A DNA stretch of 36,156 nucleotides from Methanobacteriota archaeon. Its GTDB lineage: Archaea; Halobacteriota; Methanomicrobia; Methanomicrobiales; Methanospirillaceae. Location: positions 1 through 36,156 of the forward strand of contig JAKPPB010000007.1 of NCBI GenBank assembly GCA_029547605.1, written 5' to 3'. This document shows, one piece after another, positions 3,504 through 24,606 of the stretch. The translations under genes and the position numbers were made by a program. The notes beneath the pieces were generated by a model. That model worked only from the letters and a program-made list of their open reading frames with translations, was not told the DNA's origin and did no database searches. The stretch's first letter is position 1; each line of letters starts with the position of its first letter.

Positions 3504-4220
3504 ATGTTTGGGATCTCCTCATTCTGCCTCCACCATCACCCCCTTTCATCTGCCCTTGATACGCTCTCTTCCCATACCGATCTCGTCGAGATCATGGACG
3601 ACGGTCCACATTTTTTGGAATCAACAGAACTCCTTGAGTCATACTCGCTCCGCTATGCATTTCATGCCCCTGCCAGAAGCGTGAACATTGCAAGTCTCCA
3701 CGAACCTATCCGGAAAGCGAGCGTGGAGGTAGTCGGGCAGTGCTTTCACCTTGCCAGTGAGATGGGGAGCACCGTAGTGATCCACCCCGGCTACTTTGCG
3801 TGGGAAGAGGAGCGTGACCGAGCGCTACGCCAGTTCATGAAGTCCCTTGAGGATCTGAAGCATGTTGCCGGAGAGTATGGGGTTACGTTCTATATCGAGA
3901 ACATGGCCAACTGGAATTATTTCTTCCTCCGCACTCCGGACGAGCTGGGGATAATCAACGGAATTGGCCTTGCCCTTGACGTCGGCCACGCACACCTCAA
4001 TCACTGCCTCCCCGGGTTCCTGACGGCCCCGATCTCCCATGTTCACCTCCATGACAATGACGGAAAGGATGATACCCATTTGGAGGTAGGCAAGGGCTCC
4101 ATTGATTTTGGACCGGTCATGGAAGCAATCACGAGAGACCGTGCGGTCCCCGTGGTGGAAGTGGCAACGCTAGAAGGGACTCTAGAGAGTATCAAGGCAC
4201 TTGAGAAGATGACCAGGTGA
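3504..4220 (+). CDS. Sugar phosphate isomerase/epimerase-like TIM barrel (AP endonuclease 2 family)
   Basis: A protein of 238 residues with the xylose isomerase-like TIM-barrel pattern: FHAPARSVNIAS (strand with His), VVIHPGYF, an FYIENMANW metal/substrate Glu strand, LALDVGHAHL, HVHLHDNDGKDDTH and a C-terminal VPVVEVAT strand. The His, Glu and Asp residues at strand ends are those that usually bind the divalent metal. Family members include sugar isomerases, inosose dehydratases and endonuclease IV. This one is shorter than endonuclease IV and the substrate cannot be read from sequence. The gene follows mscS by 63 bp and precedes the tRNA. The start ATG lacks a clear ribosome-binding site. 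Confidence 0.8.
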   Translation: MFGISSFCLHHHPLSSALDTLSSHTDLVEIMDDGPHFLESTELLESYSLRYAFHAPARSVNIASLHEPIRKASVEVVGQCFHLASEMGSTVVIHPGYFAWEEERDRALRQFMKSLEDLKHVAGEYGVTFYIENMANWNYFFLRTPDELGIINGIGLALDVGHAHLNHCLPGFLTAPISHVHLHDNDGKDDTHLEVGKGSIDFGPVMEAITRDRAVPVVEVATLEGTLESIKALEKMTR

Positions 4221-4316
4221 GAATCGGGCAGGAGGCATGCGAGGTACCTCGCGGTAACAGGGGTAATCCACTCAAATGAGCCCGGATATCCCAATTCATC
4301 CAGCCCTTTCCGCAAT

Positions 4317-4330
4317 CTTTTAAAGTATAT
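4317..4330 (+). promoter_or_regulatory. TATA box of tRNA-Thr
   Basis: TTTTTAAAGTATAT lies 26-39 bp upstream of the mature tRNA 5' end, the spacing expected for archaeal box A. Confidence 0.6.
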
Positions 4331-4355
4331 ACGTCGACTGTTGTTGTCGCATTGC

Positions 4356-4428
4356 GCCTTTGTGGCTCAGTCGGTAGAGCGACACCTTGGTAAGGTGTAG
4401 GTCGGGGGTTCGATTCCCCCCAAAGGCT
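4356..4428 (+). tRNA. tRNA-Thr (anticodon GGT)
   Basis: A full cloverleaf can be drawn. The acceptor GCCTTTG (4356-4362) pairs with CAAAGGC (4421-4427), with discriminator T at 4428. The D stem is GCTC/GAGC, the anticodon stem ACACC/GGTGT encloses loop TTGGTAA with anticodon GGT, and the T stem GGGGG/CCCCC has loop TTCGATT. No intron is present and CCA is not encoded. GGT reads ACC/ACU threonine codons. Confidence 0.95.
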
Positions 4429-4439
4429 TTGGCATCAAG

Positions 4440-4461
4440 TTCGATTTTTCTGTCGATTTTT
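4440..4461 (+). terminator. Oligo-T terminator after tRNA-Thr
   Basis: Two T5 tracts (4445-4449 and 4457-4461) separated by CTGTCGA follow the tRNA by about 17 bp, a typical archaeal intrinsic terminator arrangement. Confidence 0.5.
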
Positions 4462-4521
4462 CCCACCAGTGCATGATCTACTCTCCTCATATTGCATTCA
4501 CACATTGCATCCAGACAACGC

Positions 4522-4887
4522 CTATCTCAGTGCAAGTTCGATTCCGACCCGAAGGTCGTCATCATTGAAAGGTTTCAGAATAAATCCATTCGGGCGTGTC
4601 TCTTTTGCCCTCTCAATGATATCGCCATTTGAATGGGCGGTGACAAACACAATAGGGATATCATTCTTTCTCCGGACTTCATGGGCAACCGAGATACCGT
4701 CACAATTCCCAGGAAGCCCAATGTCAAGGAGAACGAGATCCGGTGACATTTGCTCAATCAGTGATACGGCCTCATGCCCATCAGAAGCTCGTCCACATAT
4801 CTCATATCCGAGTTTCACGAGCCGCCATTCCACCAGCCTGGCGATGATATCATCATCTTCCACAATAAGTATGCGCGCTTTTGACAT
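4522..4887 (-). CDS. Stand-alone response regulator receiver (REC) protein
   Basis: A 121-residue single REC domain: MSKARILIVEDDD (acidic pocket), LVLLDIGLPG carrying the phospho-accepting Asp, IPIVFVTAHS with the conserved Thr, and FILKPFNDDD with the Lys. No output domain is attached, so it must act through protein-protein contacts, like CheY or phosphorelay intermediates. It lies alone between the tRNA and an AIM24-like gene with no adjacent kinase. The ATG at 4887 sits directly after AGG, so the ribosome-binding site is poor and a short-leader transcript is likely. A TTTAATTGA box lies about 30 bp upstream on the coding strand. Confidence 0.92.
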   Translation of the reverse strand: MSKARILIVEDDDIIARLVEWRLVKLGYEICGRASDGHEAVSLIEQMSPDLVLLDIGLPGNCDGISVAHEVRRKNDIPIVFVTAHSNGDIIERAKETRPNGFILKPFNDDDLRVGIELALR

Positions 4888-5295
4888 CCTGCACTATTAA
4901 CCTGTCAATTAAACTCTGCGATAGGGCCTCTGATAAGAATTTGCCATGCAATCATTCATCAGAGCGATGAATATTCATCGGGATAATGAATGGGAAGTAC
5001 ATGCTCCCTTGAAGAACAATAATGGATTGCTCACCCGTATGTGTGTCAGTTCGTAGATAAACCGAATCTCACCTCTTTCAGAATGAATCTGGTTTATACA
5101 CTGAACCAAAAACAGGTTTGAGCATATTGCAGGTTCTGAAACGAACGGTCTTTAATGTGCTGCGAAGAGGTGAAGAATCTTTTCGTGGTGAATTGCATTA
5201 CCCTGCCTGGCTGCCCCAACCATGAGGTCACCTGGAGTATACTTCCTCTTCTTAGGAAAGCCCTTTCATCAGGAGAACCATAAAAGAATGATGAT
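4888..5295. other. 408-bp intergenic region with ATTCATC repeats
   Basis: There is no convincing gene here. Closest to the response regulator is a TATA-like TTTAATTGA (minus strand), followed at 4954-4979 by an ATTCATC/GATGAAT dyad plus a third ATTCATC. Short frames such as one from about 5159 ending just before the AIM24-like gene lack supporting features. Confidence 0.5.
4954..4979. promoter_or_regulatory. ATTCATC dyad with third half-site, possible operator
   Basis: ATTCATC (4954-4960), a 5-bp spacer, GATGAAT (4966-4972), then ATTCATC again at 4973-4979. It lies 67-92 bp upstream of the response regulator start, just upstream of its presumed promoter. An operator role is inferred from position and symmetry only. 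Confidence 0.35.
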
Positions 5296-5991
5296 ATGAA
5301 GTACGAAATACGCTATAAACCTGCGTACTCCCTCCTGGTGGTCACCCTCTCACCGGGCGAGAGCATTGTCGCCGAATCTGGCTCCATGACCTACATGCAG
5401 CCGACAATCGAGGTGAAGACCCAGAAACGGGAGAAGAGTCTCTGGGGCACACTCGGGCTTGCTCTTGTGGGAGGGCAGAGCTTTTTTGTCAACGAGTTCA
5501 CCGCGACAACAGGCACCGGCGAGGCAGGGTTCAGCGCCGCTCCCCTCGGTGACATCGACACAATCCCGATCAGCCAGGGAAAAGGGTTCATCCTACAGAA
5601 GGCTGCATACATCGCTTCCCAGGGGACCGTGAACCTCGACGTCAAGTGGGAAGGGTTCACGAAAGGGCTCTTTGGGCAGGGGCTGTTCATGATACGTGCG
5701 ACGGGGGAAGGGACCGTATTTATCAACACGTTCGGTGCAATCGACCGGCATACCCTTAAAGAAGGTGAAAAACTTGTCGTGGATAATTTTCACCTCGTGG
5801 CATTCAGTGACACCTGCCAGTACAAAGTAACGAAGTTCGGCGGGCTGAAGGAGACGATCCTGGGTGGAGAAGGGCTTGTTACTGAGATCCAGGGACCTGG
5901 CGAGGTCTTCATCCAGACCAAGAACATCCGGGAGCTCGCCGAGTGGATATGGACTATCATCGAGCCGAGGGTGCAGGCCAAGGCAAGGTGA
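5296..5991 (+). CDS. AIM24 / TIGR00266 family protein
   Basis: A 231-residue all-beta protein of the AIM24 family (formerly DUF124), close in length to the usual 220-260. Visible family features are the N-terminal VVTLSPGESIVAESGSM, the Gly-rich FGQGLFMIRATGEGTVFIN strand pair, and the C-terminal GPGEVFIQTKN. Homologues form a double-stranded beta-helix-like barrel; the yeast AIM24 is mitochondrial, and prokaryotic members have no established biochemical role. ATG 5296 is preceded by another ATG pair that runs into a stop, and the AGGAG at 5271 is too distant to help. It is not obviously in an operon. I am sure of the family, not of the function. Confidence 0.88.
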   Translation: MKYEIRYKPAYSLLVVTLSPGESIVAESGSMTYMQPTIEVKTQKREKSLWGTLGLALVGGQSFFVNEFTATTGTGEAGFSAAPLGDIDTIPISQGKGFILQKAAYIASQGTVNLDVKWEGFTKGLFGQGLFMIRATGEGTVFINTFGAIDRHTLKEGEKLVVDNFHLVAFSDTCQYKVTKFGGLKETILGGEGLVTEIQGPGEVFIQTKNIRELAEWIWTIIEPRVQAKAR

Positions 5992-6130
5992 AGGGACGCA
6001 CCCAATCTTTTCCCGGACGAAAGGAGAACAGAATTTCAGGATGTTCCCAGAACCGTGCAGACATTCAGGCGTAATATGCAGTTTGTGCCCAAGCCGCGGG
6101 GTTGACCTGACCGTTCTGGGATGGACACGA

Positions 6131-6139
6131 CTAAATATT
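6131..6139 (+). promoter_or_regulatory. TATA box for tspO
   Basis: CTAAATATT is centred about 25 bp upstream of ATG 6160, as expected for a leaderless archaeal transcript starting at that codon. Confidence 0.45.
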
Positions 6140-6159
6140 GATAAATGAGACATAGTTGC

Positions 6160-6678
6160 ATGGAATCGCAGAACGGCAAGAATACACTCCCATCGTCTGG
6201 CTGGGTGCGTTCACCCGTGAAGCTCCTCGCGGCAATAGTCGTCTGCAACCTTGCCGGGATCATCGGGGCACTTGTCACCACCACCGGAGAAGGGTCATGG
6301 TATGCAGCAATAGAGAAACCCCCTTTCAACCCGCCGGGGTTTGTGTTTGGCCCGGTATGGACCGCGCTCTACATCCTGATGGGTATCTCGCTCTACCTGG
6401 TCTGGATGGAGGGGACTGGCAGGAGAGATGTCAGGCTCGCACTCATCGTTTTTTTTATCCAGCTTGGGCTCAATACGCTCTGGACATTTCTCTTCTTCGG
6501 CCTCCAGTCTCCCTTTCTCGGCCTTGTAGAGATACTCATCTTGTGGATCTTCATTCTCGCCACCATCTTTATGTTTTACCCAATCAACAGGACAGCGGCG
6601 TTCCTGATGGTTCCGTATCTGGCCTGGGTCACGTTCGCCTCATTCCTGACGTACAGCATCTGGATTCTGAATGGGTGA
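6160..6678 (+). CDS. tspO: TspO/MBR family membrane protein
   Basis: TspO proteins are five-helix membrane proteins that bind porphyrins and other hydrophobic ligands and act in tetrapyrrole or stress responses. The 172-residue product has the family signature WYAAIEKPPFNPP followed by VFGPVWTALY, then a YLVW segment, QLGLNTLWTFLFFG in helix 3, and LAWVTFASFL with a terminal Asn in helix 5. Five hydrophobic helices are visible. I prefer ATG 6160 (MESQNGK) over ATG 6145 because of the TATA box spacing; the earlier start adds five residues. In an archaeon that makes cobalamin and F430-type tetrapyrroles a tetrapyrrole-related role is conceivable but unproven. Confidence 0.92.
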   Translation: MESQNGKNTLPSSGWVRSPVKLLAAIVVCNLAGIIGALVTTTGEGSWYAAIEKPPFNPPGFVFGPVWTALYILMGISLYLVWMEGTGRRDVRLALIVFFIQLGLNTLWTFLFFGLQSPFLGLVEILILWIFILATIFMFYPINRTAAFLMVPYLAWVTFASFLTYSIWILNG

Positions 6679-21073: not shown

Positions 21074-21604
21074 TTAAAGCCACGCCTTCCGGGCCGCGAG
21101 CTCGATTGCCCTCTGCACAGATTCTCTCGGGATAATTGTAGCGACCGGCACGTTCACGAGCTGCTCGATCACGCTGCTGACAATGGGCGCACAGACGATA
21201 GCCATTGCTCCCTCTCTTTCTGCACGTATCGCTGCGATCGTGGCCTCTTCCATGGTATGCACGGGATACTCACGTACCCTTACCTTCCGTCCGTCTACCT
21301 CCGCGTTCCGCTCCTGTATCACGTCGAGTACCGGACGGGCGGCGATCAGGCCGATGAACTCTCCCTCGGAAGAATGAGTGATCCTCCTCATCGCATGAAC
21401 CACTGCACGCAGGGTGGAGAGATTCGGGGACCTCTTTCCATGCACTATCTTGTAAAGAGAGCTCTGCGCGACCCCGCTCTTCTCGGCAAGCTCCCTTACG
21501 CTTATCCGCAGGTCACGCTGCATCACTTCCTGGAGGGTATGTACAAACTCTTCATCAGAGAGAAGCGCTGCTTTCACCAGCCGGTCTACCGGGTCTATCT
21601 GCAT
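21074..21604 (-). CDS. XRE-type HTH regulator with C-terminal ligand-type domain
   Basis: A 176-residue transcription factor. The N-terminal helix-turn-helix (about 30-72) reads ISVRELAEKSGVAQSSLYKI followed by GKRSPNLSTLRAVVHAM, a Cro/C1-type fold. The C-terminal part (about 85-175) has alternating strands and helices with EATIAAIRAEREGAMAIVCA and VNVPVATIIPRESVQRAIE, resembling the sensor fold of PrpR-N-like regulators; this match is tentative. It faces the ABC importer genes across 187 bp and lies 42 bp before argH. It could control the importer, argH or itself. There is no clear ribosome-binding site before ATG 21604. Confidence 0.82.
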   Translation of the reverse strand: MQIDPVDRLVKAALLSDEEFVHTLQEVMQRDLRISVRELAEKSGVAQSSLYKIVHGKRSPNLSTLRAVVHAMRRITHSSEGEFIGLIAARPVLDVIQERNAEVDGRKVRVREYPVHTMEEATIAAIRAEREGAMAIVCAPIVSSVIEQLVNVPVATIIPRESVQRAIELAARKAWL

Positions 21605-21730: not shown

Positions 21731-21791
21731 ATAGTATAGTAAACCATCATCTTTCGGAGAATTTATCTCCACCGGTGAGTACACTGTGTGC

Positions 21792-23027
21792 ATGAAAATG
21801 TCGCATGCGTGTGCAATCGTCGGCATGCTGTTGTGCGCAGCGCTGATCGCCGGATGCATTACTCCAACACCCCCTTCGGGGACACCCACGCCCACGGCGC
21901 CTCCCGCAGGGGCCCAGGTCATTCTCACGTACACCAAAGGGACAGGGCCTATGCCCACCCTTCTTGGCACGGACCAGATTGACGGTTATATCGCGTGGCA
22001 GCCTTTCGTCGAGGTCCCGCCAATGGCAGGAATAGGCAAGGTCCTTGTGTATTCGGGAGATATGCCTCCGGAAGGCAAGTGGAAGGATCACCCCTGCTGT
22101 GTCTTCACCGCCAACGAGAAATTTATCTCAGAACACCCCGATCTCGTAAATGCCATGACAGCCTCGATGATCCTCGCCACCAGGTACCTTGAGGAGCACC
22201 CGGAGGAGAGTGCAGAGATCGTCGCAGACTGGCTTGCCGGAAAAGGCAATTTCACCTACGGCGACATATCGGTCTCGTCCGTGGATGTACTCAAACGTGC
22301 CTTCCCCACCGTGAAATTCGTGAATGAGCCCAATGATCAGTGGATGGACTCAAACATCGAATTCGTCCATGCATTAAGAGAACTCCAGGTGCTCACAGGA
22401 TCCCTGAAAGACTCTTCTGACGCGGATTCAAAGGCACTCCTCTTTGACACCACCCCGTACGAAGCGGCACAGTCCATGGTGGACCAGGGGAAGATCGTGA
22501 CACCTGCTCCAGTGAGGGGCACAGTGGGAGTGGGCTACCTGATGTCGGATCACCATGCGGCGCTCTTCGTGGCCATCAAGAAGTGGGAGTACTTCAACGA
22601 TACCTACGGAATTGCCCTCAAGCCAAGGGACCCTGCTGCATCCAGGCCTGATGCTGCGGACCTCATCGTGAACGGGCAAAAGGTTGCGGAAATGAAGATG
22701 ATCTCGGGGGACGCCGGTCCGCAACTGATGCAACTGATGGCAACTGACAACATCCAGTTTGCGCTGGTAGGAAACCCGCCTGCAATCTCTGCGGCCGACA
22801 AGGGCACGCCTGTCAAGATCATCATGGCGATCAATTTCGAAGGCTCTGGAGTCGTCGTCACAGAAGACTCCCCTGTCACCGACTGGAACAGTTTTGTCGC
22901 ATGGGCAAAGGAGCGCTCTGCTGCCGGAAAGCCGCTCAAGATCGCCGCTCCGGGCAAAGGATCCATCCAGGACGTCATGGTCCGCTATTCCCTGGAAGCA
23001 AGCGGTTTATCTGTGAGGGAAGGATAA
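21792..23027 (+). CDS. ABC substrate-binding lipoprotein, SsuA/NrtA-like, apparently circularly permuted
   Basis: A lipoprotein: signal MKMSHACAIVGMLLC, lipobox LIAGC (Cys22), then a Pro/Thr linker. The mature protein has two parts. Residues about 41-238 match what is normally the latter part of an SsuA/NMT1-like protein (TDQIDGYIAWQPF, GIGKVLVYSGD, then the SEHPDLVNAM helices and LLFDTTPYEAAQ). Residues about 243-411 match what is normally the first part (VGVGYLMSDHHAALFVAI, MATDNIQFALVGNPPAI, KIAAPGKGSIQDVMVRYSLE). The order is thus reversed against SsuA. The substrate is unknown (sulfonate, nitrate, bicarbonate or thiamine-precursor classes). The start may be GTG 21786, two codons earlier, with better spacing to GGTGAG. 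The permease gene follows after 12 bp. Confidence 0.88.
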   Translation: MKMSHACAIVGMLLCAALIAGCITPTPPSGTPTPTAPPAGAQVILTYTKGTGPMPTLLGTDQIDGYIAWQPFVEVPPMAGIGKVLVYSGDMPPEGKWKDHPCCVFTANEKFISEHPDLVNAMTASMILATRYLEEHPEESAEIVADWLAGKGNFTYGDISVSSVDVLKRAFPTVKFVNEPNDQWMDSNIEFVHALRELQVLTGSLKDSSDADSKALLFDTTPYEAAQSMVDQGKIVTPAPVRGTVGVGYLMSDHHAALFVAIKKWEYFNDTYGIALKPRDPAASRPDAADLIVNGQKVAEMKMISGDAGPQLMQLMATDNIQFALVGNPPAISAADKGTPVKIIMAINFEGSGVVVTEDSPVTDWNSFVAWAKERSAAGKPLKIAAPGKGSIQDVMVRYSLEASGLSVREG

Positions 23028-23039
23028 CATTAAGGGACA

Positions 23040-23804
23040 ATGAGGTATCTCCGGTTCCTCCTCCCCCTTCTTCTTATCATAGGCTGGGAGGTTGCATCAT
23101 GGGTCGTCAACAATCCATTCATACTTCCCTCCCTTGAGACTGTCATACCCATCCTTTTGCATCCGTTCAGCCCGGCGTACACTCTCGGCACCGGGAGCCT
23201 CGTAGAGAATGCGACTGTCAGCATCCAGCGGGTGGGCCTCGGTTTCCTCGTTGCCGCAGCGGTCGCAATACCCATAGGAATCCTCATGGGAAGGTCAACC
23301 CTGCTCAACGATTTCTTCGACTCAACGATTGAGCTGCTCCGGCCAATCCCTCCCCTCGCGTGGGTCCCGCTGGCACTTGCATGGTTCAAGATCGGGCTCA
23401 CCTCAATCGTCTTCATCATCTTCATCGGTGCGTTCTTCCCAATCCTCCTGAACACGGTTGACGGGGTGAGATCGGTCAAGAAGACCTGGATCGAGGTTGC
23501 GACCACACTTGGAGCCAAGGAAAAGCAGATCATGACAAAGGTTGTCCTGCCGGGGGCCGCTCCTACCATATGGACGGGTCTCCGTGTCGGCTTTGGCATT
23601 GCATGGATGTGTGTGGTTGCAGCGGAGTGGCTCCCCGGCATCTCAAAAGGGCTCGGATACCTTATCCTCTACGCATACAACTTCGGCCAGACCAACCTGA
23701 TCATTGCCGGGATGGTGGTGATCGGCGTCATTGGCCTCCTCATTGACTTTATCTTCAAGCGAGTCGAGAAGAAGTGGTTCTCGTGGAGGGGCCTTGAGAG
23801 ATGA
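23040..23804 (+). CDS. ABC transporter permease (SsuC/TauC-type)
   Basis: A 254-residue integral membrane subunit with about six helices. Family signs are ELLRPIPPLAWVPLALAWF, and the EAA loop EVATTLGAKEKQIMTKVVLP followed by GAAPTIWTGLRVGFGIAW, which docks on the ATPase. It forms the translocation path for the substrate delivered by the preceding lipoprotein, probably as a homodimer since no second permease gene is present. TAAGGG lies a few bases before ATG 23040. Confidence 0.93.
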   Translation: MRYLRFLLPLLLIIGWEVASWVVNNPFILPSLETVIPILLHPFSPAYTLGTGSLVENATVSIQRVGLGFLVAAAVAIPIGILMGRSTLLNDFFDSTIELLRPIPPLAWVPLALAWFKIGLTSIVFIIFIGAFFPILLNTVDGVRSVKKTWIEVATTLGAKEKQIMTKVVLPGAAPTIWTGLRVGFGIAWMCVVAAEWLPGISKGLGYLILYAYNFGQTNLIIAGMVVIGVIGLLIDFIFKRVEKKWFSWRGLER

Positions 23805-23832: not shown

Positions 23833-24606
23833 GTGCGGCCTGTGACCCTCGTTCTGAAGGGCCTCTCCAAGTCATTTGTGGGAGAAGGGAAGACCGAGGT
23901 GCAGGCCCTCTCCAACATCAACCTTGAGGTCGCAGACGGCGAGTTCGTCTCGGTCCTTGGTCCGTCCGGATGCGGGAAGACCACCCTGCTTCGGATCATT
24001 GCAGGGCTCGACCATGCCACTGGTGGCTCCATCCTGCTTGACGGGAACAGGATCGATGGCCCCTGCCCAAGGATGGCAATGATATTCCAGGAATATTCAC
24101 TCTATCCCTGGAGGACGGTACTCGACAACATCGCGTTTGGCCTCGAGATGAAGGGGATGGAGAAGTCGAGGAGAAGGGAGAAGGCCCTCGAGTTCCTGGA
24201 ACTTGTAGGTCTCGTTGATTTTGCGAAGAACTACCCCTTCGAGCTCTCAGGCGGCATGCGCCAGCGGGTGGCTGTCGCGAGGGCGCTTGCAATTGACCCG
24301 CAGATCCTTCTGATGGACGAACCGTTCGGTGCCCTGGACGCCCAGACCCGGAACATGCTCCAGCGGGAGTTGCTGGACATATGGGAGAAGACAAGGAAAA
24401 CTGTCATTTTTGTCACCCACAGCGTGGATGAGGCAGTATTCCTCTCGGACAGGGTGGTAGTCCTCACTGCACGCCCGGGGACTGTCAGGGACATGGTTCA
24501 AATCGATCTCCCGCGCCCAAGAGAGAGGACCGGCACCGAATTTGCCAGGATCAGGCGCTATGTCCTGGATCACGTAGAGAAAACTGCCTTTTCCAGTAAG
24601 GTTTAA
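23833..24606 (+). CDS. ABC transporter ATP-binding protein (SsuB/TauB-type)
   Basis: A 257-residue ATPase that powers the importer. Motifs in order: Walker A GPSGCGKTT, Q-loop MIFQEYSLYPW, signature LSGGMRQRVAVARAL, Walker B ILLMDEPFGALD, and switch His in FVTHS. The tail VVVLTARPGTVRDMVQIDLP is typical of nitrate/sulfonate-type ATPases. The first GTG (23833) lies only 2 bp after GAGGAG, so the second GTG (23842; VTLVLKGL) may be the real start. A gap of 28 bp follows the permease gene. Confidence 0.94.
   Translation: MRPVTLVLKGLSKSFVGEGKTEVQALSNINLEVADGEFVSVLGPSGCGKTTLLRIIAGLDHATGGSILLDGNRIDGPCPRMAMIFQEYSLYPWRTVLDNIAFGLEMKGMEKSRRREKALEFLELVGLVDFAKNYPFELSGGMRQRVAVARALAIDPQILLMDEPFGALDAQTRNMLQRELLDIWEKTRKTVIFVTHSVDEAVFLSDRVVVLTARPGTVRDMVQIDLPRPRERTGTEFARIRRYVLDHVEKTAFSSKV

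Follow-up and report, generated by a model that had tools for sequence, protein, structure and literature searches.

The 36,156-nucleotide stretch of archaeal DNA that we analyzed (the window) carries a gene for a substrate-binding lipoprotein whose two halves stand in reverse order. With a probability of roughly 0.8, we assign its product to the substrate receptors of type II ABC importers of the SsuA/TauA (NMT1_2) class, with a permuted chain and a small sulfonate as ligand. The part of this assignment that concerns the chain itself, a natural circular permutation of the NMT1_2/SsuA type, is almost certain.

Order of the receptor halves

The sequence-only reading had proposed the swapped order on the basis of a series of motifs. 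All of those that it listed lie in the same open reading frame and follow one another as it described; the complete series runs LIAGC, the Pro/Thr linker, LTYTKGTGPMPTLL, QIDGYIAWQPF, HPCC, DTTPYEAAQ, VGVGYLMSDHHAAL, GNPPAI, PGKGSIQDV and the stop (Table 1). The frame has an alternative GTG start at 21786, two codons 5′, and Gly21 and the lipidated Cys22 (21855-21857) show at least 90% conservation across 42 relatives.

Profile scans confirmed that the two NMT1_2 halves are exchanged. Residues 44-148 of the receptor matched positions 155-251 of Pfam NMT1_2 (PF13379, 252 positions), and the C-terminal part, scanned separately from about residue 238 onward, matched positions 7-150; both halves scored above the gathering score, but not in the canonical order. 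When the receptor was rotated by hand, with residues 239-411 placed before residues 39-238, a single match was obtained (residues 6-283 on profile positions 7-251) and the score rose from 99.6 bits as encoded to 111.8 bits (gathering score 24.7). On the SsuA_fam model TIGR01728 (cut-off 163.5), the receptor stayed below the cut-off both as encoded (87.4 bits) and rotated (96.5 bits); canonical archaeal relatives reached 181 and 189 bits. Aligned with TauA (PDB 6SSY), a profile built from the 42 relatives placed its positions 276-352 on chain positions 14-92 and its positions 35-128 on 128-217. When the window receptor was compared with a profile built from 23 canonical archaeal receptors, its N-terminal half aligned with the C-terminal half of the profile (E 2.7e-33). 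The E-values exclude chance as the source of the swapped matches. In canonical relatives such as G489 (query 68-351), the rotated query matches across the junction; in permuted ones it splits. Each element is present once in a rotated order, with the old termini joined to each other and new termini opened, as in a circular permutation.

An assembly or sequencing artefact could also produce a rotated order, by fusing pieces of two normal genes that lie in tandem. The window genome is a draft of 128 contigs, and tandem receptor genes occur in the relatives L063 and L072. Such a join, which the sequence-only reading had itself named as a possible objection, is excluded because independent genomes, several of them single-contig, carry the same rotated order at 44-96% identity; in addition, the window genome has no second NMT1_2 protein. 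We give the artefact a negligible probability.

Table 1. Features of the permuted receptor gene and its neighbours (positions in the window)
Feature	Position	Strand	Basis or remark
Divergent HTH regulator (HTH_3)	21074-21604	-	Conserved beside permuted and canonical loci
Permuted substrate-binding lipoprotein gene	21792-23027	+	Open reading frame of 411 aa
Signal peptide and lipobox LIAGC	21792-21857	+	Sequence
Pro/Thr linker, lipid anchor to domain	21858-21911	+	Sequence; low pLDDT at aa 22-32
Segment Y, aa 41-238, equivalent to the C-terminal part of a canonical SsuA/NMT1 receptor	21912-22505	+	Profile, PDB and alignment matches
HPCC motif, aa 100-103	22089-22100	+	Cys102-Cys103 at TauA Leu204-Asp205, ligand pocket
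Linker from old C-terminus to old N-terminus, about aa 226-243	22467-22520	+	pLDDT >95
Segment X, aa 239-411, equivalent to the N-terminal part of a canonical receptor	22506-23024	+	Profile and alignment matches
Gly309, equivalent to TauA Gly61, sulfonate site	22716-22718	+	Invariant, 42/42
Gly327, equivalent to TauA Gly79, sulfonate site	22770-22772	+	Invariant, 42/42
PGKGSIQDV, aa 387-395	22950-22976	+	Ser391 equivalent to TauA Thr132; Ser/Thr in 42/42
ABC importer permease	23040-23804	+	PF00528, E 3.8e-29; conserved adjoining the receptor
ABC importer ATPase	23833-24606	+	PF00005, E 8.6e-33; conserved

Predicted structure and domain layout

An AlphaFold2 model of the receptor, computed from a 42-sequence alignment, reached a pLDDT of 93.5 and a pTM of 0.87. 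Foldseek, which aligns in chain order, found no solved structure of such connectivity for this model (best E 1e-4, TM at most 0.27), and a search of the viral structure library gave no match. The model of the canonical archaeal relative L061 (pLDDT 87.6), which served as control, retrieved SsuA, TauA, NrtA and CmpA, including SsuA 3KSX at E 5.5e-22 and SsuA structures at TMt 0.84-0.88 (3KSJ, TMt 0.88). A colinear alignment with SsuA or NrtA, the outcome that would have spoken against a permutation, was thus not seen for the permuted model, whereas the control yielded SsuA.

It had further been claimed that no piece is missing, and the two models agree with this: their secondary-structure elements, paired by hand from two lists, correspond one to one in rotated order. 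Elements E214-217, H220-228, E234-238, H241-247 and E252-256 of canonical L061 are E42-47, H54-59, E65-69, H75-79 and E82-87 of the permuted model; E265-272, H273-278, H280-299 and H301-312 are E101-108, H109-114, H116-135 and H137-149; H316-325, H338-350, H360-363 and H367-373 are H163-173, H182-197, H210-217 and H221-232; and the series from E78-84 to H194-205 is found again at E244-250 to H392-403. Beyond these, the permuted model has only a short last strand and additional strands near 153-162 and 274-293.

The cut maps near TauA residues 145-151, a mapping for which we extended the printed alignment along the TauA sequence. Domain I of TauA consists of residues 23-104 and 202-319 and domain II of residues 105-201 (PMC6906117), which places the cut inside domain II. 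The lipid anchor therefore moves from domain I, which holds the old N-terminus, to domain II, which holds the new one, and two hinge crossings are kept; by these domain limits, the suggested transfer of the anchor to the other lobe is correct. By homology with TauA, domain I would be one continuous stretch (about residues 101-348) and domain II would be built of both chain ends (about residues 41-97 and 353-411), with the old ends connected by a short linker and the new ends opened inside domain II.

Function as an importer receptor

The window protein has the lipobox and anchor of an ABC importer receptor and adjoins a permease and an ATPase. Many loci in several families, permuted as well as canonical, have kept the arrangement of divergent HTH regulator, receptor, permease and ATPase, from which it follows that the permuted protein probably works as an ordinary importer receptor. 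Judged from its sequence and gene neighbourhood, it is very likely such a receptor, and it would close on its ligand and dock on the permease like any Venus-flytrap receptor. A receptor that no longer transports and now acts as a sensor or as a binding protein for something else is improbable. In divergent clades (29-35% identity), some cysteines and portions of the C-terminal helices are indeed missing, but the receptor is kept directly upstream of permease and ATPase, its pocket residues are conserved, and in one transporter operon a permuted form has taken over from a canonical receptor (see below).

The C-terminal part of the regulator is weakly PrpR_N-like, and the regulator is kept with both receptor orders across families. 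The transported compound may be its ligand.

Distribution and phylogeny

The rotated arrangement is widespread among homologues in the window's taxonomic order, where 84 of 199 genomes gave one unbroken match over the whole permuted chain and 14 more of the same 199 contained a divergent permuted form (about 29-41% identity). The permuted form also lies on GTDB contigs that bear the names Methanolinea, Methanoregulaceae and Methanophagales. A second permuted group, with shorter members and the same cut, was found in 29 of 393 genomes of the phylum; its open reading frames mostly encode 331-431 residues, are about 21-29% identical to the window receptor and were checked for the rotated order. 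Most of the fetched phylum-search matches that end near residue 270 also proved to be permuted. A plasmid search gave two-piece matches at best, and no site at which the full query was covered in permuted order.

For phylogenetic analysis, all sequences were rotated to a common order. A tree constrained to keep all permuted receptors of the window's cut together scored better than the one from the free search, by 7.27 log units, and was not rejected (AU p 0.72). One ancient origin for the window-type and second-group permutations is possible but not proven. We consider it rather unlikely that the Methanomicrobiales-type and second-group permutations are separate events in the same loop: the unconstrained tree leaves the two groups unjoined and two other permutations show that such events recur, but the constrained tree scores better and the cut site is identical in both groups.

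Several loci in this survey differ in composition. L063 and L072 each have two tandem permuted receptor genes upstream of a single permease and ATPase. At L146, the gene immediately upstream of a second-group permuted receptor encodes an MtrH-family methyltransferase (4149-5096, + strand), a hint that the substrate there may be methylated. At L100, an NMT1_2-like protein of 302 residues without signal peptide (507-1412, + strand) adjoins a permuted receptor gene and can be regarded as a cytoplasmic binding protein or enzyme. L038 (Nitrospirota), which appeared permuted at first glance, was found by alignment to have the canonical order.

Young permutations at a second cut

Two receptors, L077 (genome G233) and L081 (genome G461), are rotated at a cut different from that of the window; in L077 it lies between '..NGSGLFYRKG' and 'GIKTIADLKGKKIA'. 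Each is nested, with strong support, in a canonical clade of the tree, and the two are young, independent permutations. Among the 51 genomes of the family of G461, only G461 itself gave a rotated match in one piece. The receptor of this ANME-1-family genome (L081, also L137 4936-6081, - strand) has a PGF-CTERM-like C-terminal anchor.

Comparison of congeners revealed the DNA of a permuted and an unpermuted state. Regulator, signal peptide, permease and ATPase are collinear between locus L135 of G233 and locus L136 of G206, the latter on a single contig, and the only difference between the two loci (L135 4871-5953 versus L136 5187-6242) is an exchange of the two adjacent parts of the receptor: L135 5036-5637 corresponds to L136 5616-6220, and L135 5669-5946 to L136 5337-5614. 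The new internal linker of L135, PASGTPKVKD, resembles the post-lipobox linker of the congener, TPTGTPGVKD. Together, the clean segment swap and the likeness of the linkers are the remnant expected of tandem duplication, fusion and trimming. G206 and G233 may be Methanocella, and family f9 may be Archaeoglobi.

By the same route of tandem duplication, fusion and trimming the window's permutation would have arisen. The sequence-only reading had suggested duplication followed by trimming of both ends; the signature of this process is visible in the young permutation, which belongs to another genus of the same phylum, and is not visible for the window's ancient event. No fused tandem receptors that could be intermediates were found among the long open reading frames L083 and L078: the former (819 aa) holds one canonical copy and unrelated domains, and the part of the latter that was covered shows one copy.

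Exchange of receptors within a coenzyme M operon

In ANME-1 relatives (family f10), comDE and in some cases also comA and comB are located directly upstream of receptor, permease and ATPase (L166, L168, L169, L170, L173, L174 and L175). At L137, a cysteate synthase (528 bits, cut-off 324.9) and a sulfopyruvate decarboxylase are encoded between permease and ATPase. The receptors adjoining com genes, among those examined, are mostly canonical.

One locus, L036 (JAGGRS010000230.1, Methanophagales), through which the family was recognised as ANME-1, contains a permuted receptor. Compared with its congener L173, it is 98% identical over comABDE (1-2705) and 94% identical over the ATPase part (5402-6288), and the segment with the receptor and the permease or permeases is exchanged (L036 2706-5401 versus L173 5169-6952). 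In L036, a permuted receptor and the permease that belongs to it have replaced the canonical pair, a natural swap test of their equivalence that is seen on one metagenome contig whose two flanks match the same host.

We consider it reasonably likely that, in a single family of archaeal receptors, permutation has recurred and been selected for. This reading comprises three or more independent events (one or two ancient ones at the cut of the window and two young ones at the second cut), new ends that always lie in domain II, so that the chain starts on the other lobe, and exchange of rotated and normal forms inside one coenzyme M operon.

Relation to known systems

With SsuA, TauA and NrtA (PF13379; TIGR01728; E. 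coli SsuA 2X26, TauA 6SSY) the window receptor has both halves, the ligand-site glycines and the adjoining permease and ATPase in common; it differs from them in its rotated order, the anchor on the other lobe, inserted strands and a score below the SsuA_fam cut-off. Treponema pallidum MglB-2 (Tp0684), of 'Cluster Bc', is also a natural permutation of a tethered ABC receptor that retained ligand binding (PMC4990184). Its fold is that of a sugar-binding type I (cluster B) receptor, with the N-lobe cut and a fourth hinge crossing gained, whereas the window receptor is of type II, with domain II cut and two crossings kept; as an NMT1_2 protein of this type, it does not belong to Cluster Bc. Among type II binding proteins, permutation also relates the glycine betaine- and molybdate-binding proteins and CysB (CPSARST, PMC2395249). 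Those cases are deep structural relations below 24% identity; the present one is at the sequence level, with orthologous loci and young cases. The best or second-best named models for receptor, permease and ATPase were SaoX, SaoP and SaoA (NF040735, NF040733 and NF040729) at 53.7, 186 and 283 bits; all three proteins fell below the cut-offs (300, 295 and 360) and do not belong to the Sao system.

We found no report of a permuted NMT1/SsuA receptor in the open-access papers searched. Permuted ABC receptors are already known elsewhere; the case in this family is new, and stands out because it is broad, recurs and leaves its DNA steps visible. As a rule, natural circular permutations are deduced by comparing distant structures; here rotated and normal forms stand in orthologous operons, a pair of congeners shows both the earlier and the later state of the DNA, and in one operon a rotated receptor occupies the place of a normal one. 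The pair and the replacement make both the duplication-trimming route and the tolerance of docking geometry directly testable. For annotation, a permuted protein breaks profile models: it appears as two partial matches and falls under a family cut-off.

Ligand and coenzyme M

In TauA, the sulfonate is held by Gln30 and the backbone amides of Gly61, Gly79 and Thr132, and the amine of taurine by Glu106, Thr132 and Asp205 (PMC6906117). At the equivalents of TauA 204-205, Cys102 is present in 38 of 42 sequences and Cys103 in 35 of 42. Vicinal cysteines at this position of taurine specificity are common to permuted and canonical archaeal receptors (mostly CC, in a few CD or SC); some relatives have HPCD or have lost one cysteine, and Cys103 is Asp or Asn in some. 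Coenzyme M (2-mercaptoethanesulfonate) is taurine with a thiol replacing the amine, and for this reason a cysteine at the place of TauA Asp205 is suggestive of coenzyme M. In Methanosarcina acetivorans, a coenzyme M-specific ABC transporter (ssuA, ssuC) is induced on coenzyme M starvation, together with cs and comDE (PMC12068725). That SsuABC system is the same kind of operon, canonical archaeal receptors bearing the C-C motif count among the relatives, and com genes adjoin such transporters in ANME-1; it differs in that the com-linked receptors are mostly canonical, and coenzyme M binding by the permuted receptor is putative.

In the window genome (G000, estimated 100% complete), neither ComA nor cysteate synthase nor sulfopyruvate decarboxylase gave a match above the curated cut-offs, and in control genomes the families of the pathway were found where expected. 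The window organism may, on this gene content, be a coenzyme M auxotroph, and a link between the receptor and uptake of the cofactor, in an organism seemingly unable to make it, bears on cofactor sharing among methanogens. Within the window's genus, sulfopyruvate decarboxylase is absent from 10 of 11 genomes and the permuted receptor is present in all 11; the enzyme is present in 39 of the 84 permuted genomes. Across the taxonomic order, the association between loss of coenzyme M genes and the transporter is weak (p 0.045, kinship not corrected for), and the genes and the transporter coexist in many genomes.

The odds that coenzyme M is the ligand appear slightly better than even. A small sulfonate, most likely coenzyme M, would be bound at the conserved Gly309, Gly327 and Ser391, with Cys102-Cys103 where Asp205 of TauA holds the amine of taurine. 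A real permutation with another ligand that serves as a source of sulfur or nitrogen, be it a general alkanesulfonate, taurine or some other anion (for example nitrate), is somewhat less probable than an even chance. It would fit SsuA, TauA and NrtA as the best named relatives, second-group permuted receptors in families that may not make methane or use coenzyme M, the replacement of Cys103 in some relatives and the window locus, which has no com gene nearby. It is opposed by the com genes adjoining canonical transporters and one permuted transporter in ANME-1, by the coenzyme M-specific ssuA of Methanosarcina (PMC12068725) and by the lack, in the window genome, of the pathway genes searched for. 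At L039 (3050-4489, + strand), a Desulfobacter response-regulator receiver domain is fused to a receptor-like domain, and the latter likewise contains an HPCC motif.
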